From NCBI GenBank assembly GCA_002385265.1, contig DGDD01000020.1, positions 1 through 21,775 of the forward strand: DNA of 21,775 nt. The letters run 5' to 3'. Origin of the DNA: Chitinophagaceae bacterium UBA3961. GTDB taxonomy: Bacteria > Bacteroidota > Bacteroidia > Chitinophagales > Chitinophagaceae. This document shows positions 2,028-19,315 of this stretch, one piece after another. Within the stretch, counting starts at the first letter, position 1, and each line of letters opens with the position of its first letter. Both the position numbers and the translations under genes were made by a program. Under the pieces are notes generated by a model. That model made no database searches, was not told the DNA's origin, and saw nothing but the letters and a program-made list of their open reading frames with translations.

Positions 2028-2613
2028 TTGCTGAATTTACGAAAATGCAACTCATTGTTTGGTTGCCAAAGTCAAACAGTTGAGATGAGTATCACAGAAT
2101 ATCAAGGGTAAATTAAAGAGCTAACGTGTTGTGCTATTGAAATAAAGGGTCTCAAACATTACATGACATTCTAGTTAATGTGTGTTGACGCGATATGAAA
2201 GTTTAATTTTCTCACCAAGCGATTCCTCCAACCGATATTTTGAGTGGGCCCCCCAGGGTCCACGAAAAATATCGAGCATTATATAATCAATTGCTATGTC
2301 ATTCCGAACGAGCGAAACTGCGAAGCAGATGAGCGAGAGAGGAACCTCAAAACGGGTTGTCAGAGAAGAGTCACTTTTGATGCAGTTTTTGAGTGATTTA
2401 GTTTTTGAGTTTGTGGCCATACACAGCGCTTCGGCTTAAAATACGAGATATGCTAATGGCGTAATGGTAGGCGAGAAAATCTTCTCAATGCAATAACTTA
2501 AAAACTAAATAACCTAAAACTTATAACTCAGATTTTATTCTAGCGCAGCTTCGCTTCTTTACAATTGGATACTCGCTTTAAAGCTCGCTCCCAGAGTTTC
2601 CTCTCTGCACTTT
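2028..2613. other. Gene-poor region with hairpin and repeat-like sequence
   Basis: Nearly 600 bases without a credible gene. It contains a 42-nt imperfect hairpin (listed separately). It also has a stretch around 2295-2350, read on the minus strand as GAGGTTCCTCTCTCGCTCAT followed by CTGCTTCGCAGTTTCGCTCG, which resembles dispersed intergenic repeats common in this phylum. A related-looking segment lies at 2541-2560 (AGCGCAGCTTCGCTTC). Open frames over it on both strands are compositional artefacts of these repeats. It may be the debris of an old insertion next to the toxin-antitoxin module. Confidence 0.4.
2233..2274. repeat. 42-nt imperfect inverted repeat (19-nt arms, 4-nt loop)
   Basis: The left arm at 2233-2251 and the right arm at 2256-2274 are complementary apart from two adjacent mismatches and one G-T pair, around a CCCA loop. 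The tip is GC-rich (GTGGGCCC/GGGTCCAC) and the base is AT-rich (CGATATTTT/AAAAATATCG). It lacks a following T-run, so it does not read as a simple terminator. A REP-type or MITE-type element is possible. Confidence 0.6.
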
Positions 2614-2642
2614 TTTGCTTTTCAAAAAAATGCTTACTTTTG
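2614..2642 (+). promoter_or_regulatory. higBA promoter
   Basis: TTTG at 2614-2617 (-33 box) and TACTTTTG at 2635-2642 (exact TAnnTTTG -7 box) are separated by 17 bases. Transcription would begin near 2648, so the toxin must start at the ATG at 2667 rather than further upstream in the open frame. Confidence 0.6.
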
Positions 2643-2643
2643 A

Positions 2644-2664
2644 CGTTACTAACGCAATACGTTA
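2644..2664. promoter_or_regulatory. Putative HigA operator: three CGTTA half-sites
   Basis: The bases read CGTTA-C-TAACG-CAATA-CGTTA, giving inverted repeats with 1-base and 5-base spacers. They overlap the predicted transcription start and stop just before the toxin ATG. HigA-type antitoxins commonly repress their own promoter through such palindromes. The binding itself is inferred. Confidence 0.5.
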
Positions 2665-2666
2665 TT

Positions 2667-2948
2667 ATGATAGTTTCATTTGGAAATACCGATACAGAGA
2701 AGATTTGGCAAGGTGTTAGGGTAAAAAAGATTCCGAATGACATACAACAAACAGGAAGAAGGAAGTTGAGAATGATCAATAACTCCATCAACTTGAACGA
2801 TTTGCGCATACCACCAGCGAACAGGCTGGAGAAGTTATCCGGTAAATTCAAGGCTTTTTACAGTATCCGGATTAATGATCAATGGAGGATTATTTTCAAG
2901 TGGAACTCGGGTAATGCGTTTGAAGTAGAAATTCTTGATTATCATTAA
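2667..2948 (+). CDS. higB: HigB-family toxin (RelE superfamily mRNA interferase)
   Basis: A 93-residue protein of the HigB/'plasmid maintenance system killer' family, ribosome-dependent mRNA endonucleases of the RelE fold. The core pattern is present: a basic KLRMIN segment, an RIPPANRLEKLSG stretch, then the signature INDQWRIIFKW and a C-terminal VEILDYH, whose final Asp-Tyr-His is typical. The frame is open further upstream to 2565, but the promoter and operator place the real start at ATG 2667, and the extra 34 residues look non-coding. The antitoxin follows after 11 bases, the toxin-first order typical of higBA. Confidence 0.88.
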   Translation: MIVSFGNTDTEKIWQGVRVKKIPNDIQQTGRRKLRMINNSINLNDLRIPPANRLEKLSGKFKAFYSIRINDQWRIIFKWNSGNAFEVEILDYH

Positions 2949-2959
2949 ATAAATTGATT

Positions 2960-3259
2960 ATGGCACAGCTGCAAAATATACATCCTGGTGAAATACTTCT
3001 TGAGGAGTTTCTCCAACCCTTGGGCATTTCTGCTTATCGGCTTTCCAAAGACCTTGACATTCCTCAAACCCGCATTTCGGAGATTTTGAAGGGTAATCGT
3101 CGTATTACTGCAGATACCGCGCTACGCTTATCTAAATATTTCGGTAATTCCGCAAAATTCTGGCTCGGCCTGCAAGACGACTATGACCTGGAGGAGGAAC
3201 GTAAAGAGAAGGGGGCTAGCTTGGATGCCATAAGAACGTATGATTTTAAAGCCGCATAA
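2960..3259 (+). CDS. higA: HigA-family antitoxin (XRE-type HTH)
   Basis: A 99-residue antitoxin with the HigA/VapI pattern: the N-terminal motif IHPGEILLEEFLQPLGIS, a helix-turn-helix at about residues 23-45 (YRLSKDLDIP then TRISEILKG), and the characteristic FGNSAKFWLGLQDDYDL segment that packs against the toxin. It neutralises HigB and, with it, probably represses the operon. I start it at ATG 2960. A TTG two codons upstream is in frame but unnecessary. It shares the promoter ahead of higB and lies 11 bases after the toxin stop. Confidence 0.9.
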   Translation: MAQLQNIHPGEILLEEFLQPLGISAYRLSKDLDIPQTRISEILKGNRRITADTALRLSKYFGNSAKFWLGLQDDYDLEEERKEKGASLDAIRTYDFKAA

Positions 3260-3599
3260 GCAATCGAAATAATCAAAGCAAGTTTAAAAACGATTGAAAA
3301 CGGAAAATGCCAACCCCCTCAGCAACCGCTTTGCGCTCTCCCCGTCCTTCGCGGTGAACCAAAAGTCTTCACCACCAAGCAGTTACACCAGTACAGGTTT
3401 GCCTCAAAATTGAGCCCATTCTTTCCCTAAATCTTCAACAAAAAAAATCGACCAATCATATAAACATTATTATACATGTTTTGATTTTTTCTACAAAATC
3501 CACTGCCATCGCATTGTTGCAAATTTCCCATCTATTTTTCAACACCCCGTGAATAACAACTTCCCCTCCAAATCCATTCTGTTCCTACTTTTACCGTGA
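3260..3599. other. Intergenic stretch before the riboswitch leader
   Basis: No gene is visible. A segment near 3320-3365 (CTTTGCGCTCTCCCCGTCCT followed by TCGCGGTGAACC) resembles degenerate dispersed intergenic repeats. The right part is AT-rich and should hold the riboswitch promoter. TATTTTTC at 3533-3540 with TTG at 3514-3516, and TACTTTTA at 3586-3593, are each one base off the -7 consensus, and I cannot choose between them. Confidence 0.4.
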
Positions 3600-3602
3600 T
3601 AT

Positions 3603-3759
3603 GGTTTCCGCATTTGCGGGATTAAAAGGGAACCTGGTGTAAATCCCGGACTATCCCCGTAGCTGTATTCTCCCCAAACCTTGTTTTTCTTCAGCCACTG
3701 TGTAAAAACGGGAAGGCGTAAAACAACGGAGTGAGTCAGAAGACCTGCCGTATCAAACC
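3603..3759 (+). promoter_or_regulatory. Cobalamin (B12) riboswitch aptamer
   Basis: The conserved cobalamin-aptamer blocks occur in order: AAAAGGGAA (3624-3632), GGTGTAAATCCC (3636-3647), CCCCGTAGCTGTA (3655-3667), GCCACTG (3694-3700), GGGAAGGC (3710-3717) and the B12 box AGTCAGAAGACCTGCC (3734-3749), which differs from the usual AGCCAGGAGACCTGCC at two positions, one of them an allowed pyrimidine. A closing stem P1 can form between GGTTT 3603-3607 and AAACC 3755-3759. The element binds adenosyl- or methylcobalamin and, in known cases, lowers expression of the downstream genes. Here these are dut-nrdB-nrdA, starting about 150 bases downstream. Identification is by motif reading only. Confidence 0.93.
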
Positions 3760-3911
3760 TTTGTGTAGCAATGCTTTCGGAGGAAAAGTGTGGTACTGAT
3801 AGTCGCGGAAACCCCATCTGTGCAACTTTTCAGCCCCCTAACAATCCCTGAACCAATCCAAAACCCTAAGAAAAAATCATTTATCAGTAGTAGTAAAACT
3901 GACGGAACATC
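3760..3911 (+). promoter_or_regulatory. Riboswitch expression platform / dut leader
   Basis: GCGGAAACC at 3805-3813 is perfectly complementary to GGTTTCCGC at 3603-3611, which includes the 5' strand of aptamer stem P1, so the two pairings exclude each other. A second 7-bp stem, GAAAAGT 3783-3789 with ACTTTTC 3825-3831, encloses that segment. No hairpin followed by a T-run is visible, so control of translation start or a Rho-type mechanism fits better than an intrinsic terminator. The dut ribosome site is not clearly sequestered in what I can fold by eye. Confidence 0.45.
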
Positions 3912-4355
3912 ATGCAAACAATTAAAATAGCAACGATAAATCGCTCCGAGAACCCACTTCCGGAATACGCCACTACCGGCTCTTCAGGAATGGACCTTCG
4001 CGCGAACCTAACAGAACCGGTGAGCATCAAGCCGCTAGAGCGAATCTTGATTCCAACCGGACTCTTCCTCGAAATCCCACAAGGTTTCGAAGCACAGATC
4101 CGACCCAGAAGCGGTTTCGCCTTCAAACAAGGCATTACCGTGCTGAATTCACCAGGCACGATCGACGCCGATTACAGAGGCGAATTGAAAGTGCTCTTGG
4201 TAAACTTGTCGAACGAGGCTGTTACCGTAAACAACGGTGATCGCATCGCTCAAATGGTATTTCAAAAAGTAGAATCCGTACAATTGATTGTTGCAGAAGC
4301 ACTCACCGACACCGATAGAGGCGCCGGCGGCTTCGGTCACACAGGAAAACAATAA
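3912..4355 (+). CDS. dut: dUTP diphosphatase (trimeric dUTPase)
   Basis: A 147-residue dUTPase that hydrolyses dUTP to dUMP and pyrophosphate, keeping uracil out of DNA and feeding thymidylate synthesis. All five family motifs are visible: motif 1 [10 protein letters not shown] (23-31), motif 2 PRSGFA (65-70), motif 3 [13 protein letters not shown] (82-94, with catalytic Asp85 and the ribose-excluding Tyr88), motif 4 GDRIAQMVF (109-117) and the flexible C-terminal motif 5 [12 protein letters not shown] (134-145). Length is normal for the homotrimeric form. It is the first gene behind the B12 riboswitch and lies 26 bases ahead of nrdB, so it should be co-regulated with the reductase. The pairing is sensible because both enzymes set the deoxynucleotide pool. 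Confidence 0.95.
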
Positions 4356-4381
4356 GCACTAACCACTCAACTATACATCGC

Positions 4382-5356
4382 ATGGGATTATTTGACAAAC
4401 GAATCAACTATAAGCCTTTTGAGTATCCTGAAGTACTCAAATTCACAGAGGCTATCAACAAATCTTTCTGGGTACACTCAGAAGTAGATTTCACTGCAGA
4501 TACACAAGACTTTCATTCGCACCTCAACCACGCAGAAAAAACAGCGATCAAAAACAGCTTGCTTACCATCGCGCAAATTGAAGTGTCGGTAAAAAGTTTC
4601 TGGGGTAATTTGTACCACCACTTTCCAAAACCTGAATTGAACGGCCTCGGAACCACATTCGCTGAATGTGAATTCCGCCACTCAGAAGCTTACTCAAGAT
4701 TGTTGGAAGTATTGGGGTATAACGACGAGTTCGAAAAACTCATCGAAGTGCCTGTAGTAAAAGAGCGCTTGAAATTCTTATCAAAAGCCCTGAGCAAAGT
4801 AAACTCTTCGAACGAAAAAGAATACGTTACTTCTTTGATCCTCTTCACGATCCTCATCGAAAACGTATCGTTGTTCAGTCAATTCGCAGTGGTACTTTCT
4901 TTCACTCGCTTCAAAGGTTTGATGAAGAACGTGAGCAATATCATTGCTTGGACTTCAGTTGACGAACAATTGCACGCTAACGCCGGTATCTACCTCATCA
5001 ATAAATTGAGAGAAGAATATCCTGATCTGATCGATCAAAACCTCATCAATGAAACGGTACAACTTGTAACCGACTTCATTGAAATTGAAGGCATGATTAT
5101 TGATTGGATCTTCCAAGAAGGAGAAATCAATTCTATCAACAAAGCTGATTTGTTGAACTTCATCAAATTCAGAGTAGACGAGAGTTTGGTGAAAATCGGT
5201 TTCCCTGAACAATTCTTCATCAGCGGCAGTCAGTATGCGCCAATGAAATGGTTTGAAGAAGAAGTGTTCGCCAACAGCTTGGATGATTTCTTCGCAAAAC
5301 GTCCGGTTGATTATACCAAACACGACAAGAGCATCACCGCTAACGACCTATTTTAA
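4382..5356 (+). CDS. nrdB: Ribonucleoside-diphosphate reductase class I, beta (radical) subunit
   Basis: A 324-residue R2 subunit that houses the dimetal cofactor and radical for reduction of ribonucleotides. The ligand set is intact by comparison with E. coli R2: Glu67 (QIEVSVKSFW), Glu97 and His100 (ECEFRHSEAY), Glu160 (LIENVSLF), and Glu195 and His198 (VDEQLH). Tyr104 sits where the radical tyrosine belongs, so this is not a Tyr-less or ligand-less variant. The protein begins directly with the R2 fold and has no N-terminal ATP-cone, unlike some Bacteroidota NrdB proteins. It precedes the alpha subunit by 30 bases, the reverse of the common nrdA-nrdB order. It is controlled with dut and nrdA by the upstream riboswitch. 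Confidence 0.95.
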   Translation: MGLFDKRINYKPFEYPEVLKFTEAINKSFWVHSEVDFTADTQDFHSHLNHAEKTAIKNSLLTIAQIEVSVKSFWGNLYHHFPKPELNGLGTTFAECEFRHSEAYSRLLEVLGYNDEFEKLIEVPVVKERLKFLSKALSKVNSSNEKEYVTSLILFTILIENVSLFSQFAVVLSFTRFKGLMKNVSNIIAWTSVDEQLHANAGIYLINKLREEYPDLIDQNLINETVQLVTDFIEIEGMIIDWIFQEGEINSINKADLLNFIKFRVDESLVKIGFPEQFFISGSQYAPMKWFEEEVFANSLDDFFAKRPVDYTKHDKSITANDLF

Positions 5357-5386
5357 TTAGTACACCCATTCAATTCAAGCATAGAC

Positions 5387-7078
5387 ATGGTAGATATTGC
5401 AACGCCGCCACTTATCCAAGAAGCACCTCGTGCTGAAAAACTCTGGTGGAAAAACGAAGAAAGTGAGCAAATGCTCAACCGCGGGTACCTGCTGAAAGGT
5501 GAAACCCTCGATGGTGCCATTGAAAGAATTTGTAAAGCAGCAGCACAACGCTTGTACAAACCTGAACTAACCGATGCCTTCCGCGAAATGATTGAACGCG
5601 GTTGGATGAGTTTGAGCTCTCCTATTTGGGCCAATATGGGTACCGAAAGAGGATTGCCCATTTCATGTTTTAACGTAGACATGCCCGATAATATCGAAGG
5701 CATTACACATAAACTGGGCGAAGTGATCATGCAAACCAAAATTGGCGGAGGTACTTCCGGTTATTTTGGTGGATTGAGAGGTCGCGGTAGCGCCGTTACC
5801 GACAACGGTAAAAGCAGTGGAGCCGTTAGCTTCATGCGTTTGTTCGACACCGCTATGGATACCATCTCTCAAGGTGGCGTGCGTCGCGGAGCATTCGCTG
5901 CTTACTTAGACATCGACCATCCGGATATCGAAGAATTCTTGAAGATCAAGAGCATTGGTCACCCCATTCAAAACCTTTTCTACGCTGTTTGTATCCCCGA
6001 CTATTGGATGCAAGACATGATTGATGGTGATGCAGCAAAAAGAGAGATCTGGGCGAAAGTATTGGAAAGCCGTCAACAGAAAGGCTTGCCTTACTTGTTC
6101 TTCACCGACAACGTTAACAAAGAAAAACCGCAAGTATACAAAGACCTCAACTACACCATCAACGCAAGTAATTTATGTAGTGAGATCATGCTTCCATCTA
6201 ATTTCGATGAAAGCTTTATTTGCTGCTTATCGTCTATGAACTTGGAATTATACGACGAGTGGAAAGATACCGATGCTGTTCGCTTGGCCATCTTCTTCCT
6301 CGACGCTGTTCTTCAAGAGTTCATTGCAAAAACAGAAGGAAATCATTACTTAGCCGCTGCCAATCGTTTCGCGAAAAGACACCGCGCCTTAGGCTTGGGT
6401 GTGTTGGGTTGGCATTCCTATCTTCAAAAGAACATGATTCCGTTTGAAGGTTTGAGAGCTAAACAATTGACCTCACTTATTTTCCGTGATATCCGCGACA
6501 AGGCCGACAAAGCAACGGTTGACCTCGCTCGTATTTACGGTGAACCTGAAGTGTTGAAAGGATACGGTCGTCGCAATACCACCACCATGGCCATTGCTCC
6601 TACTACATCTTCATCTGCTATTTTAGGTCAGACATCTCCCGGTATTGAGCCTTTCAGCAGCAACTACTACAAAGCAGGTTTGGCTAAAGGAAATTTCATG
6701 AGACAAAACAAATACCTCAAGAAATTATTGGAAGAAAAAGGATTGGATACGGAAGACGTATGGAGAGGCATTATGTTGAATCACGGAAGTGTTCAACACA
6801 TGACTGAATTGACTAAAGAAGAGAAAGACGTATTCAAGACTTTCAAAGAGATCAGTCAATTGGAGATCATCCAACAAGCTGCGATCCGTCAGAAATTTGT
6901 AGATCAAGGCCAGAGCTTGAATTTGAACATCCCGCCAAACTTACCGGTAAGAGATGTAAACAAGTTGATCATTGAAGCTTGGCAATTGGGCATCAAATCG
7001 CTCTACTACCAAAGAAGTCAAAGTGTTTCAAAAGAGCTTGTGACGAATTTGGTGACCTGTGTGAGCTGCGAAGCGTAA
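5387..7078 (+). CDS. nrdA: Ribonucleoside-diphosphate reductase class I, alpha (catalytic) subunit, no ATP-cone
   Basis: A 563-residue catalytic subunit. The active-site set is complete: Cys94 (PISCFNV) and Cys279 (ICCLSS) form the reducing pair, Asn262-Cys264-Glu266 lie in NLCSE with Cys264 as the radical cysteine, Tyr540-Tyr541 (SLYYQRSQS) form the radical-transfer pair, and the C-terminal tail carries Cys558-x2-Cys561 for re-reduction by thioredoxin or glutaredoxin. The phosphate-binding APTTSSS loop is present. The protein starts at the R1 N-terminal domain (EESEQMLNRGYLLKGE), so the roughly 90-residue ATP-cone that lets dATP shut down overall activity in E. coli NrdA is absent, which explains much of the short length. 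It is the last gene of the operon and ends just before a strong terminator. Confidence 0.95.
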   Translation: MVDIATPPLIQEAPRAEKLWWKNEESEQMLNRGYLLKGETLDGAIERICKAAAQRLYKPELTDAFREMIERGWMSLSSPIWANMGTERGLPISCFNVDMPDNIEGITHKLGEVIMQTKIGGGTSGYFGGLRGRGSAVTDNGKSSGAVSFMRLFDTAMDTISQGGVRRGAFAAYLDIDHPDIEEFLKIKSIGHPIQNLFYAVCIPDYWMQDMIDGDAAKREIWAKVLESRQQKGLPYLFFTDNVNKEKPQVYKDLNYTINASNLCSEIMLPSNFDESFICCLSSMNLELYDEWKDTDAVRLAIFFLDAVLQEFIAKTEGNHYLAAANRFAKRHRALGLGVLGWHSYLQKNMIPFEGLRAKQLTSLIFRDIRDKADKATVDLARIYGEPEVLKGYGRRNTTTMAIAPTTSSSAILGQTSPGIEPFSSNYYKAGLAKGNFMRQNKYLKKLLEEKGLDTEDVWRGIMLNHGSVQHMTELTKEEKDVFKTFKEISQLEIIQQAAIRQKFVDQGQSLNLNIPPNLPVRDVNKLIIEAWQLGIKSLYYQRSQSVSKELVTNLVTCVSCEA

Positions 7079-7099
7079 AAGAGAAACCAATTAGAATAC

Positions 7100-7133
7100 A
7101 AAAGGGCAACAATTTTCTTGTTGCCCTTTTTTT
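7100..7133 (+). terminator. Intrinsic terminator of dut-nrdBA
   Basis: AAAGGGCAAC 7101-7110 pairs perfectly with GTTGCCCTTT 7120-7129 around a 9-base loop, followed by a T-run to 7133. It lies 22 bases after the nrdA stop. Confidence 0.92.
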
Positions 7134-7174: not shown

Positions 7175-7912
7175 TTAATCAGCCATGCGAAATACAATCG
7201 GCAATACGAAGTACATTTTCACAATGTTTCCATCCATAATAGCTGGAGTCCATTTCGGCATTTTTTTCACGAGTTCAATGGCTGCTTTCGCAAGAATAGG
7301 ATCTATATTATTGATTACAGTTGGTTCTTCAATAGCGCCCTCCTTATTAACTATGAATTGAACTCTCGCGGTTCCTTGCAAGCCCAGGCGTCTCGCTTCA
7401 ACGGGGTAGTCAAACTTTCGAACAATGAACTTCCTCAAACTATCTACACCACCCGGAAAACTGGCTGCCTTTTCATATTCAAACCAAGCAGTATCGGCAC
7501 CCGTAGAACTGAAACATTGCCCGTTCACCATCTTGCCCTTTTCATAAACATCTTTGCGCTTAACTACTCCAGACTCCCAAAATGTAGAGAGTAGGCCATT
7601 CAATTGACCGTCACTATAATTTTTCTCTTCTATTAATCTACCATCTATATATCGTTTGGCGGTTCCGTTCAACACTTTCTTAGGGGTGTAGGGATAATAG
7701 TTGTATTCGCCTGTAACTGATCCCTTCATATCGTGGTACACCGATTTTACCCGTTGGGTATCTTGGGGGTCTTTGTAATTAATAATAAAGCTAAACGCAG
7801 AATCTTTAACGGAAACAACCGTTCCTGTTTTATTGACCCAAATAGTGTCTTGTGCGTTGGCAATAAAACAGCTTGCTAACAATAAAGTGCTAATAAAAAG
7901 AAATGATTTCAT
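7175..7912 (-). CDS. MORN-repeat protein with C-terminal TonB domain
   Basis: A 245-residue exported protein. A signal peptide covers about residues 1-20 (MKSFLFISTLLLASCFIANA). The middle (about 70-130) carries repeats of the MORN/YwqK type, such as GTAKRYIDGRLIEEKNYSDG and LNGLLSTFWESGVVKRKDVY. The C-terminal 85 residues match the TonB C-terminal fold: FDYPVEARRLGLQGTARVQF, then VNKEGAIEEP and a closing KMPKWTPA...VKMYFVLPIVF. Bacteroidota have many such proteins lacking the TonB membrane anchor. They are annotated as energy transducers, but without a transmembrane helix that role is doubtful. The nearest TonB-dependent receptor in the window is 11 kb away. Confidence 0.8.
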   Translation of the reverse strand: MKSFLFISTLLLASCFIANAQDTIWVNKTGTVVSVKDSAFSFIINYKDPQDTQRVKSVYHDMKGSVTGEYNYYPYTPKKVLNGTAKRYIDGRLIEEKNYSDGQLNGLLSTFWESGVVKRKDVYEKGKMVNGQCFSSTGADTAWFEYEKAASFPGGVDSLRKFIVRKFDYPVEARRLGLQGTARVQFIVNKEGAIEEPTVINNIDPILAKAAIELVKKMPKWTPAIMDGNIVKMYFVLPIVFRMAD

Positions 7913-7973: not shown

Positions 7974-9053
7974 TCAATTGGACTCTTTCATTTTCCGCAT
8001 CAGCATCCGAACACCCTCTAAAGTAGCTTCATTGTAGGCATTAGCAAAAACGATGTATGCAAGACCTTTTCTGCGATCAATTTGAGCAATGGAATAATAA
8101 GTAAAATCACCGGTACCTGAATGCGATGAGAAAATGTTATCGCCCTCCACTATATTAAACCATCCTAATGCGTAAGCCGGTCGGCAATTATGTATGAAGA
8201 AATAGGTGGAGGCTTTAAGGTAGGCGTCGGACCCGGAAAGCCCTTTGAGATTGAGTTGAATAAACCGAACATAATCGGGCATTGTCATATTAATATCTCC
8301 TGCCGGCTCTGTATAGTCGAGGTGGTACATTTGATGAGAACCTAAAGGCTTCATGATGCCATCATTGGTGCGATGACCCCATGTATCCTTCGTAGTTTGA
8401 TTATCGGGCCAAGAAAAACCAACGTTAAGATTCAGGTCTTGATTGAATACCCTTTTAATTAATGTTTCCCAAGACATCTGGGTCACTTTCTCTACCATTA
8501 GAGCCGCTAAAGTGTACCCTGCATTGGAGTAAACGAACGGATGCTGCGCAGATGGCTTCTCAGGCGCTTGCTTCAATACAAATTTTGCAAACAAGTAACG
8601 TTTGTGGGCATTGTCGCCTTGAAAATTTGGAATTACAGGATCTTGATCACCTTGAAATGGAGGAATACCGGCGCGATGTGTTAATAAATCTAGTAAGGTA
8701 ATGTTTCGATAATAGCGTTCACTTTGAAATTTCCATTCCGGAAAAAGATCAAAAAACTTGGTTGTCCACTTGAGCTTTCCTTCTTCCACATATTTAGCAA
8801 TTACAAAAGCCGTCATGGCCTTGGTATTTGATCCCAGATGAAAGCGGTCGTTTAAGGTAGCGGTATCCGGAAGTAAGATCGAATGTCTTCCAAGTGCAGC
8901 CATTTCGAATACACTGTCTGCTCGAACAACCGCATAACTCAATTCCGGAATATCATAGTGCCTTCGAATAGAATCGGCTGCTTTTAATAAAGATTGCGGA
9001 TAGGCGTCATTTAAAAAACCAAGAAGCAGTAGAATGATCAAACGAGTTTTCAT
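7974..9053 (-). CDS. Serine hydrolase, beta-lactamase/PBP-like, secreted
   Basis: A 359-residue class C beta-lactamase-like serine hydrolase (penicillin-recognising fold). The nucleophile motif SNTK is at residues 75-78 (HLGSNTKAM), the second motif is YSN in FVYSNAGYT, and the third is HSG in SSHSGTGDF. I start it at 9053, where a good signal peptide begins (MKTRLIILLLLGF), rather than at an in-frame ATG 14 codons earlier. Members act as D-Ala-D-Ala peptidases, esterases or aminopeptidases, and true beta-lactam resistance cannot be inferred. It follows a Crp/Fnr regulator gene on the same strand, with a CRP-like palindrome about 75 bases upstream. Confidence 0.87.
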   Translation of the reverse strand: MKTRLIILLLLGFLNDAYPQSLLKAADSIRRHYDIPELSYAVVRADSVFEMAALGRHSILLPDTATLNDRFHLGSNTKAMTAFVIAKYVEEGKLKWTTKFFDLFPEWKFQSERYYRNITLLDLLTHRAGIPPFQGDQDPVIPNFQGDNAHKRYLFAKFVLKQAPEKPSAQHPFVYSNAGYTLAALMVEKVTQMSWETLIKRVFNQDLNLNVGFSWPDNQTTKDTWGHRTNDGIMKPLGSHQMYHLDYTEPAGDINMTMPDYVRFIQLNLKGLSGSDAYLKASTYFFIHNCRPAYALGWFNIVEGDNIFSSHSGTGDFTYYSIAQIDRRKGLAYIVFANAYNEATLEGVRMLMRKMKESN

Positions 9054-9125
9054 ATCAATTTGCAACCGAGTAAACGATGGTCGGTTTCCTTTCAATGCAA
9101 ATTATGGAGCAGGCAAACACATGAA

Positions 9126-12543: not shown

Positions 12544-12587
12544 AAAGAACAGGCCTGTTAAAATAACAGGCCTGTTCTTTTTATTTC
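12544..12587. terminator. Bidirectional terminator with self-palindromic arms
   Basis: A perfect 17-bp stem (12544-12560 with 12564-12580) with a 3-base AAA loop, then TTTTTATTT on the plus strand. It ends the AraC gene and sits at the 3' end of the convergent serine hydrolase, whose stop codon is at 12581-12583. Each arm contains AACAGGCCTGTT, itself a perfect palindrome. Confidence 0.9.
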
Positions 12588-13714
12588 ACCAACTCACTCA
12601 AAAACTCCTTATCACTTCCGTTTCCATTGTTCTTGTACAAAACTATGATAGCATTCTTATCTGGATAAAACAGGGTATTGGCTTCTACCCCTAACAAACT
12701 TCCATTGTGACCACAAGCAATTCCTGCACCGGTTCTCCAAATCTCTATACCCAAACCGTATTCACATTCTGTACTATTACAAGAGCTTAGCTGCTTTCTC
12801 TTCATTTCATTCACGAGTAAAGGAGATACCAGTTGACCGTTAAACAAACCTTTCATAAAAAGAAATAGATCTTCAGCTGTAGTGATCAATCCACCATCTG
12901 CTTCAGCATCGCCTTCAGCTTTATCAAACAGGGTTACATCCATTACCTGACCATTTTGAAAAATATCAGCATAACTACGCGATACATTCTTATCATCACG
13001 GATTTCCAAATACGTATTCTTTAAACCCAAAGGCGTATAAATACGTTCATTGAAAAGTGCATTCAAGGTTTTTCCACCAAGTTCTTCCGCAATAGCACCA
13101 AGCAATAAGAAATTCGTGTTGCTATAAGAATACTCGCTTCCCGGACTGAATTTTAATGGCTTCCCACTCAAGTACTTTTTGATCTTTGCCTCAACACTCA
13201 ATTTAGCCATCTCTTCCGGATGGTTTAATATATCTGTTTGATATTCGATACTTTCATTCACCGGATCAGGTATCCCACTCAAGTTTGCCAATAGATGACG
13301 GATCGTAATGGCACTGCTATTGTCGATATACTTTGAAAGATTCGGAACAAATGAACTCAACTTCGCATCAAGCGATAATTTGCCTTCTTGAACGAATTGC
13401 ATAATAACCACTGAGGTGAACATTTTCGTAATACTAGCAGCACGAAACTGATGGTTTTTTCGCATAACTGTATTGTATTCTAAATTGGAAAATCCATCGG
13501 ATCCAATCCACAAACGCTCATTTTCACGACTTACCAAAAGAATGCTTCCCGGTGAGGAAGTTTGAACTTTGTAGGTGTGGAGTGCCGCCTGATACTGCGT
13601 TTGCTTCGGATGATCATTATAGTCTACATCAGCTATTGGATCAGGTTTTATACTATTCTCCTTTTTACAAGAAATTGCTAGTAAAGCAATCAATACAATT
13701 TTATATAATTTCAT
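12581..13714 (-). CDS. Serine hydrolase lipoprotein, beta-lactamase/PBP-like
   Basis: A 377-residue serine hydrolase with a lipoprotein signal (LLAISC, lipidated Cys16, followed by KKEN), so likely anchored in the inner or outer membrane. Catalytic motifs: Ser94-x-x-Lys97 (AASITKMFT), YSN in YSYSNTNFLL, and HNG in GHNGSLLG. The ADGGLITTAEDLFLFMKGL segment is typical of class C-like hydrolases. Its 3' end abuts a bidirectional terminator and its 5' end follows the barrel-like gene by only 15 bases, so the two are probably one transcript with this gene second. The substrate is not deducible. It is not a close copy of the other two serine hydrolases nearby, sharing motifs rather than overall sequence. 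Confidence 0.88.
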   Translation of the reverse strand: MKLYKIVLIALLAISCKKENSIKPDPIADVDYNDHPKQTQYQAALHTYKVQTSSPGSILLVSRENERLWIGSDGFSNLEYNTVMRKNHQFRAASITKMFTSVVIMQFVQEGKLSLDAKLSSFVPNLSKYIDNSSAITIRHLLANLSGIPDPVNESIEYQTDILNHPEEMAKLSVEAKIKKYLSGKPLKFSPGSEYSYSNTNFLLLGAIAEELGGKTLNALFNERIYTPLGLKNTYLEIRDDKNVSRSYADIFQNGQVMDVTLFDKAEGDAEADGGLITTAEDLFLFMKGLFNGQLVSPLLVNEMKRKQLSSCNSTECEYGLGIEIWRTGAGIACGHNGSLLGVEANTLFYPDKNAIIVLYKNNGNGSDKEFLSELVK

Positions 13715-18033: not shown

Positions 18034-18136
18034 TACTACGTAAATATAGAGGTACGGTTCGGATAAAAAAACTATCCAAATGGACCATAGGTCAGATTTG
18101 GGAAATAAGAGAGGTTTGAAGCCTAAATGTCAAACT

Positions 18137-19315
18137 ATGCGCCTTACTACACTGCTTTCAGTATTTCTCATCACTTTTTTGAGTTGCAAAAAGGGTGACA
18201 GCACCCCTACTCCTACTCCCGATCCAGGGCCCGTTAAGCAAACTGATATCACTGCAGTAGATAGCAAAGTGCAAACGTTTATGAGCTCCTACAATATCCC
18301 AGGAGCCTCCCTTGCCATTACAAAGAATGGGAAATTGGTATACGTTAAAGGCTATGGGAAGGCTAATACCGCCACCGGCGAAGATGTAACCCCTGCACAC
18401 CGTTTCCGATTGGCTAGTGTTTCAAAAACCTTTACAGGCGTGGCCATTATGAAGTTGGTTCAAGATGGCAAACTAAACCTTGATGCCTTAGTATTTGGAG
18501 CAGGTGGTGTATTGGGTACCGACTACGGCACTGCTCCTTATAATGCGAATCTCTTAAAAATAACCGTTCGCCATTTACTCCAAAATGTTAGCGGCTCTTG
18601 GGGCGCCAGTACTGGTGGCGATGTAATTGACCAAAATCCGTCTTATACCTACAAACAATTCTTCGACTGGTTGCTTGCAACCCGCCCCAATCCCAAAGCA
18701 CCGGGTACAGTGTACGATTATTCCAATGTAAACTTTGTACTCGCCGGGCGAATCATTGAAAAAATTTCAGGTAAAACGTATATCAATTACATAAAGGAAG
18801 ACATCATGGCACCTATTGGTGGCACCCAAACAGAGATGAGTGGAAAAACAGAGGCAGAGCAGAAAACAAAGGAGGTAAAGTATTATGGTCAAGGCAACGA
18901 TTTGAACTTTGTTTATAGTATTGCCTTCCCTCGCAGAGATGCCGATGGTGGACTCATGACTACAGCAACCGATCTTATCCGTTTAGTAACGGCAATAGAC
19001 GGATCCACTACGCGCCCTGATATCTTGAACAGCACCAATTTAACAGCACTCACCACCCCTTCATCGGTATTTAGCGGTTATGCATGTGGTATTGGAATAT
19101 GGACTGCTGAAAATGTGTGGTTCAACTACGGAAGTTTGCCCGGTACACGCACTGCCTTCATGCGCAATGCCAATGGCATGTGTGTGGCGCTGTTGCTAAA
19201 TTCTCGAGTAGACCCAACAACCAACGAAACACCGTTTGTATATGCGATGCAAGACATGATTTTAGATTTCACCAAAAACAGTTCGTATAGTTGGCAGAAT
19301 ATTGATCAGTTTTAA
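18137..19315 (+). CDS. Serine hydrolase lipoprotein, beta-lactamase/PBP-like
   Basis: A 392-residue serine hydrolase. The start at 18137 yields a lipoprotein signal (LITFLSC, Cys17, then KKGD) and a TPTPTPDPGP spacer, so the enzyme is tethered away from a membrane. An earlier in-frame ATG at 18080 would bury the signal and is rejected. Catalytic motifs: Ser94-x-x-Lys97 (LASVSKTFTG), YSN in YDYSNVNFVLAG, and a third-motif region NYGSLPGTR in which Tyr replaces the usual His or Lys before Gly. The DADGGLMTTATDLIRLV segment is typical. It is divergent from the two-component operon, and its 3' end overlaps the TonB-dependent receptor gene by 4 bases, tail to tail. Confidence 0.88.
   Translation: MRLTTLLSVFLITFLSCKKGDSTPTPTPDPGPVKQTDITAVDSKVQTFMSSYNIPGASLAITKNGKLVYVKGYGKANTATGEDVTPAHRFRLASVSKTFTGVAIMKLVQDGKLNLDALVFGAGGVLGTDYGTAPYNANLLKITVRHLLQNVSGSWGASTGGDVIDQNPSYTYKQFFDWLLATRPNPKAPGTVYDYSNVNFVLAGRIIEKISGKTYINYIKEDIMAPIGGTQTEMSGKTEAEQKTKEVKYYGQGNDLNFVYSIAFPRRDADGGLMTTATDLIRLVTAIDGSTTRPDILNSTNLTALTTPSSVFSGYACGIGIWTAENVWFNYGSLPGTRTAFMRNANGMCVALLLNSRVDPTTNETPFVYAMQDMILDFTKNSSYSWQNIDQF

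Follow-up and report, generated by a model that had tools for sequence, protein, structure and literature searches.

Architecture of the locus

The stretch analysed here, called the window, is the 21,775-base contig DGDD01000020.1 (C163) of Chitinophagaceae bacterium UBA3961, whose draft genome comprises 4.12 Mb in 304 contigs and is 95.7% complete. It carries a vitamin B12 (cobalamin) riboswitch aptamer followed by three genes, dut, nrdB and nrdA, for a dUTPase and the two subunits of a class I ribonucleotide reductase. The features are as follows.

3536..3556, + strand: 21-bp inverted repeat, TTTTCAACA-CCC-CGTGAATAA, a candidate operator that also occurs before nrdJ (agreement at 14 of the 18 informative positions)
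3585..3766, + strand: cobalamin riboswitch aptamer, full length (RF00174, 102.8 bits, E 4.4e-25)
3772..3790, + strand: short hairpin-like element TGCTTTCGGAGGAAAAGTG directly 3' of the aptamer, with the pattern CTT(N)CGG
3912..4355, + strand: dut, trimeric dUTPase, 147 residues (NF001862, 201.5 bits, cut-off 103), the sole PF00692-type dUTPase found in the genome
4382..5356, + strand: nrdB, radical subunit of a reductase assigned to class Id, 324 residues (PF00268, 226.7 bits, cut-off 33.6)
5387..7078, + strand: nrdA, catalytic subunit assigned to class Id, 563 residues, with a C-terminal CVSC pair (NF006577, 757.6 bits; TIGR02510, 708.6 bits; both above cut-off)
7100..7130, + strand: terminator-like hairpin of 13 pairs with a loop of 5, followed by T

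The original prediction, made from the letters of this DNA, placed a clear cobalamin aptamer ahead of a dut-nrdB-nrdA operon, and both parts are borne out by the profile matches listed above. A pattern search also located the conserved dUTPase motifs I, III and V in Dut. The covariance model alignment spans positions 1-189 of the 189 in RF00174, with a score far above the gathering score of 31.5, and an Rfam scan returned no other match above any gathering score across the window. The three genes lie on one strand with gaps of just 26 bases (dut-nrdB) and 30 bases (nrdB-nrdA), so that the arrangement is in keeping with a single transcript. The prediction also placed one terminator at the end of the operon. 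A hairpin of suitable form does lie at 7100-7130, but the terminator scan found five such sites where 4.4 are expected from shuffled sequence, so that nothing except its length makes this one suggestive.

The aptamer ends 146 bases before the dut start codon. The element at 3772-3790 is probably part of the expression platform; it is kept in all seven aligned leaders, and the CTT(N)CGG pattern follows 21 of 40 cobalamin aptamers inspected, in one of those 21 at a different place. A hairpin scan reported no terminator-like site between aptamer and dut, and a pattern search of 3767-3911 found no TAnnTTTG, which we take to be the Bacteroidota promoter consensus. This motif was also considered as a part of the window's own control region and set aside: in its strict form it lies close to where the aptamer begins at 11 of 39 reductase riboswitches, against an expectation of 0.9 given the upstream background, the window not among them. 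The possibility of a kissing loop between L5 and L13 was weighed by visual inspection alone, and such a pairing was not shown.

Assignment of the reductase to class Id

Characterised class Id reductases use two manganese ions and superoxide to form an Mn2(III/IV) cofactor. The closest solved structure to the window's NrdB is PDB 6cwo (536.6 bits over residues 1-324, the whole length), followed by the class Id structure 5olk (310.7 bits), with the next group, represented by 9dws, at 104.5 bits; for NrdA the closest is 6dqw (1091.6 bits). According to the portions available of two papers (PMC8463856, PMC6754362), 6CWO and 6CWQ are class Id structures, and NrdB of this class is marked by a Glu/Tyr pair, a metal-near Lys three residues before a conserved Trp, and a Thr partnering the Tyr. 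The window's NrdB has E67, K71, W74, Y104 and T191 as the corresponding signature residues. Because the closest structures are of class Id and the signature is present, we assign the reductase to this dimanganese type. The original prediction of a B12-independent class I enzyme therefore stands as to class I, but requires refinement, as this is not a generic class I reductase.

The B12-dependent side of the genome

The original prediction expected this genome to hold a B12-dependent nrdJ as well. A full-length class II NrdJ of 1122 residues is indeed encoded on contig C168, scoring 593.6 bits to TIGR02504 (cut-off 399.95). The genome holds two RF00174 aptamers, the window's and one at C91:8956-9158; the genome scan gave no RF00174 match near nrdJ. 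The C91 aptamer precedes a TonB receptor whose top model is a B12 receptor (266 bits, under the cut-off of 599.7), and downstream of that receptor lie CobT and CobS, which both pass their cut-offs, and a phosphatase resembling CobC (148 bits, cut-off 162.9). This gene set reads as one for B12 uptake and salvage; the original prediction had suggested a search for uptake or synthesis genes.

Class I reductases are diphosphate reducers. NrdJ carries at residue 133 a P-N-S-P motif, which the available portion of one source ties to diphosphate reducers (PMC8365446). On these two grounds, NrdJ and the class I enzyme alike should yield dUDP.

Co-occurrence of the riboswitch with nrdJ

We searched 117 genomes of the family for RF00174, TIGR02510, TIGR02504 and PF00692, obtaining matches in at least 109, in 14 (above cut-off), in 104 (above cut-off) and in 114, respectively. 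The genome-wide RF00174 search used strict filters and was limited to 19 scored candidates in each genome, so its counts are lower bounds. Riboswitches were counted from Rfam scans alone; a home-made pattern missed several Rfam-positive loci.

A longer NrdA, of about 800 residues, occurs in 42 genomes at 43 loci, called class Ia from their length and from the one NrdB tested among the 43. Genome G095, whose contig begins inside nrdA, was dropped, leaving 41 genomes. A cobalamin aptamer precedes nrdBA in 29 of these: in 28 of the 33 with nrdJ and in one of the eight without it (Fisher p 2.5e-4, for genomes that share ancestry). The value becomes 7.4e-4 without G067, which was kept even with no nrdB adjoining its nrdA, and 1.4e-4 when G033 is removed as well. 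Searching the twelve aptamer-negative upstream regions again at E up to 1 gave no RF00174 match.

B12 repression in the absence of a B12-dependent fallback enzyme would be harmful, and for that reason the riboswitch is expected only together with nrdJ. The co-occurrence supports the backup logic advanced in the original prediction, in which the class II enzyme serves when B12 is present and class I when it is absent. The survey thus makes this idea a comparative test within one family: where nrdJ is missing, the nrdBA riboswitch is nearly always missing too.

Certain loci of the survey have further riboswitches close to the reductase genes. On the - strand of locus L113 (genome G055), two cobalamin riboswitches lie in series, at 4647-4776 and 368-553; one stands before nrdBA, and the second directly follows nrdA and precedes a gene that, over its first 77 residues, looks like MetE, the B12-independent methionine synthase. 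Cobalamin riboswitches also lie directly downstream of nrdA in L118 (genome G062, 6264-6456) and in L079 (genome G003, 7194-7387), where the reductase and another apparently B12-controlled gene would stand back to back.

Class Id loci in relatives

The 14 survey genomes above the TIGR02510 cut-off hold 15 class Id loci, three of which have an aptamer before nrdBA: the window, G008 and G031 (41.7 bits). Upstream of the other twelve no RF00174 match was found even at E up to 1. Eight class Id genomes have nrdJ and no riboswitch at the class Id locus; in two of them, G003 and G114, the riboswitch stands instead before a class Ia operon. Around the 14 survey class Id loci other than the window's, the search detected no dut.

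A wider collection supplied 80 related class Id loci, kept from 460 relatives, with flanks that reach 5 kb at most and in some cases stop short at the end of a contig. The nearest named relatives of the window's NrdA are from Chitinophagaceae, Sediminibacterium goheungense (91% identical) and Flavisolibacter longurius (90%). Of twelve related loci scanned with Rfam, seven have the aptamer (L151-L154, L176, L214, L220), and all seven genomes encode a full-length NrdJ. A tree of 43 loci places the window together with five riboswitch-positive relatives in a clade of six (support 98/98). Because L214, L176 and L078 lie apart from it, B12 riboswitches were probably acquired by class Id operons on more than one occasion.

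The order riboswitch-dut-nrdB-nrdA, which the original prediction suggested surveying in Bacteroidota, was found at only two of the 80 related loci besides the window, L151 and L152. These belong to S. goheungense and F. longurius, and both have a dut-nrdB gap of 26 bases, identical to that of the window. The gene order does recur, then, but it is rare and appears derived; the usual dut site is empty in the window's genome, as described next.

Probable relocation of dut

Each of the 114 dut-positive survey genomes, the window's included, has exactly one PF00692 match. In a separate search of ten genomes, S. goheungense and F. longurius had two duts each, the operon copy and another, and the other eight had one. 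Among twelve ordinary dut loci fetched, the next gene belongs to the same lipoprotein family in nine; in the window's genome that family member is identified as LolB1. The same-genus genome G001 has the order ispF-dut-lolB. In the window's genome the ancestral site is empty: inside contig C148, IspF (TIGR00151) adjoins LolB1 with 116 bases between them and no dut. A tblastn search for a dut remnant in this emptied site, or in the long leaders of L153, L154, L085 and L220, gave nothing credible (best E 0.39), and none of its matches lay at the expected place. A dut tree has a branch (support 83/86) that sets the three operon duts apart from the dut of G001.

Most likely, dut was added to an existing riboswitch-nrdBA cassette, the two copies coexisted as they still do in the two relatives, and the housekeeping copy was then lost here. 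The genomes offer a natural series of three steps, with dut at the usual site only, at both sites, and in the operon only, which would trace how a gene with a probable housekeeping role was placed under the control of a vitamin.

A 21-bp repeat shared by reductase genes

Between about 50 and 68 bases upstream of aptamers lies an inverted repeat with the consensus TTWTCMACA-NNN-KGTGNATAA; the site at 3536-3556 is the only one in the window to score 13 or more. Sites at this level occur within 150 bases of 33 of 39 reductase riboswitches vs two of 36 other cobalamin riboswitches, a count that is partly circular for the reductases, because the consensus (18 informative positions) was drawn after viewing their leaders, and that includes other riboswitches whose targets were checked in part. 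Fairer tests are nrdB upstreams lacking a riboswitch, and nrdJ. Within 400 bases, 16 of 24 riboswitch-less nrd upstreams reach 13 and nine reach 14, against a background of 2.2% (13 or more) and 1.3% (14 or more) among 229 other gene upstreams. Of ten nrdJ upstreams tested, three score 13 or more. Across 82.9 kb of the window's genome just two sites reach 14, the window's and one 111 bases before nrdJ.

The repeat is a candidate regulator site for deoxynucleotide supply, and as a DNA operator separate from the riboswitch it probably adjusts both reductases together; its sharing suggests one DNA-level regulator over the two. Its half-sites resemble the DnaA box, a pair of which would consist of two TTATNCACA-type 9-mers bound by DnaA, but position 6 is A about as frequently as C (18 and 19, respectively, of the 37 sites scoring 11 or more). 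The repeat is also present at L010:2546-2566 and is common to class Ia, class Id and some class II reductase upstreams in the family.

A probable B12-repressed backup, and its alternatives

These observations make it likely that the window encodes a backup deoxynucleotide supply repressed by B12, with the class Id operon turned on when the vitamin runs short. With B12 present, an adenosylcobalamin-type ligand would bind the nascent leader at 3585-3766 and lower expression of dut-nrdB-nrdA, and the B12-needing NrdJ would make deoxynucleotides. With B12 short, the unbound leader would permit expression of the dUTPase and of the class Id reductase, which should need manganese and an oxygen species and no B12. 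We infer the OFF direction of the switch; cobamide riboswitches repress in Bacteroides, according to the portion available of one study (PMC8941943). The effect of the switch would fall on translation or on the stability of the RNA, with no terminator involved, a mechanism reached by exclusion, because neither a terminator nor an internal TAnnTTTG promoter was found and the leader folds no better than shuffles.

Several points weigh against this interpretation. That folding result covers the leader at 3590-3935 (z 0.49), and no expression platform was proven. G033, a draft in 790 contigs of about 90% completeness, carries the riboswitch yet gave no NrdJ match above cut-off, and five nrdJ genomes of the 800-residue NrdA set lack a riboswitch before nrdBA. 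The survey genomes are related, not independent, which makes the Fisher value optimistic. For class Id itself the link is weak, with the aptamer before nrdBA in three of eleven genomes that have nrdJ and none of three that do not. As to dut, the bootstrap of its tree had not settled, and a second dut is possible in the missing 4% or so of the genome, although the usual site is present and empty.

The part played by dut is where the alternatives have most weight. The riboswitch may govern the reductase with dut a passenger, kept on by leakiness, by an unseen promoter or by a stable basal level, so that dUTP clearance is independent of B12; we give this something short of an even chance. dUTPase is essential in many bacteria, and with a sole trimeric dut in the genome tight B12 repression should be harmful. 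Both reductases, moreover, are predicted diphosphate reducers, which gives no reason for a differing dUTPase need (PMC8365446, in the portion available). Yet no gene stands between the aptamer and dut, the 3767-3911 interval shows no TAnnTTTG motif, and three species have kept dut in this position. Repression of dut might instead be tolerated if the dCTP deaminase-like protein of this genome (178 residues, contig C166, L295:1498-2034; TIGR02274, 116.6 bits, above cut-off) were bifunctional, both deaminase and dUTPase, and so could also clear dUTP. It scores higher against 2qxx (88.4 bits), which we take to be the bifunctional mycobacterial enzyme, and against 1ogh (76.5 bits, named bifunctional) than against Escherichia coli 1xs1 (54.0 bits), but bit scores to structures so distant do not settle activity, and we regard bifunctionality as possible while inclining against it. 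No match to the dimeric dUTPase model PF08761 was found in the genome, a weak negative given that the control was positive in one of 14 genomes and below cut-off. The original prediction had dut joining the regulon to reset dUTP clearance along with the choice of reductase; this gained no support, both enzymes being predicted dUDP producers. A form of that idea is still proposed, because the one trimeric dUTPase of the genome stands directly behind a B12 OFF-switch: in B12-rich cells Dut would be scarcer, the dUTP/dTTP ratio would be raised and DNA would contain more uracil, with the opposite in cells starved of B12. We consider it unlikely; if true, the uracil content of DNA would be regulated by a vitamin.

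It is very improbable that the operon is a mobile cassette, or one derived from a phage, in which the riboswitch was simply carried along and plays no role in the host. Chryseobacterium phages do carry related NrdA proteins (best identities 66.7%, 62.5% and 60.6%), a higBA toxin-antitoxin pair lies directly upstream, and the operon dut is unlike the duts of the host's own group. The identity of NrdA to its Sediminibacterium and Flavisolibacter counterparts is much higher, however, NrdBA groups with Chitinophagaceae chromosomal copies in the clade of six (a tree built without phage copies), and the riboswitch tracks nrdJ. The 66.7%-identical, class Id-like NrdA is that of Chryseobacterium phage MA9V-3 (PV245944.1, H1), where it is annotated as a vitamin B12-dependent reductase; the annotation looks mistaken.

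Relation to known systems

There is precedent for class I reductases under the control of B12 riboswitches. Borovok et al. reportedly described such control in 2006 for nrdABS of Streptomyces coelicolor. There, as here, the genome encodes both the B12-dependent NrdJ and a class I reductase that does without B12, the latter preceded by a cobalamin riboswitch, but the Streptomyces class I enzyme is of class Ia in an nrdABS operon, whereas the window's is assigned to class Id and has dut first. The Streptomyces case is cited in two sources available in part (PMC4342826, PMC5962746). Bacillus methanolicus MGA3, of another phylum, shares a putative adenosylcobalamin riboswitch before nrdAB, and its transcript lists no dut in the portion available of the source (PMC4342826). 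A cobalamin riboswitch before nrdD in Chlorobium is mentioned in part of another paper (PMC8620254).

The riboswitch-nrdBA operons of the 800-residue, class Ia-like NrdA share with the window the host family, the aptamer family, the upstream 21-bp repeat and the tie to nrdJ; they differ in their eukaryote-like subunits (from the one NrdB tested) and in having no dut. The class Id enzyme of Flavobacterium johnsoniae (PDB 6cwo, 6dqw; PMC8463856, in the portion available) provides the closest structures to both subunits and shares the signature residues with NrdB. Twelve listed loci of Flavobacterium and its kin, spot-read with an insensitive home-made pattern, gave no riboswitch motif. A literature search, thin on subscription papers, returned no report of a cobalamin riboswitch with a dUTPase plus reductase or with class Id. 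A dUTPase behind a B12 riboswitch appears to be new, and the locus would extend B12-riboswitch control to a manganese class Id reductase and to dUTPase.

Neighboring genes

The toxin-antitoxin pair next to the operon occupies window positions 2565-3259 and consists of a HigB-like toxin (PF05015, 78.5 bits) and a HigA antitoxin (TIGR02607, 112.4 bits). Two genes elsewhere in the window, at 12581-13714 (- strand) and 18080-19315 (+ strand), appear to encode serine hydrolases of the class C beta-lactamase/DD-peptidase type, scoring far under the cut-offs of named beta-lactamase models, and the serine-hydrolase gene at 7974-9095 (- strand) has a similar reading.

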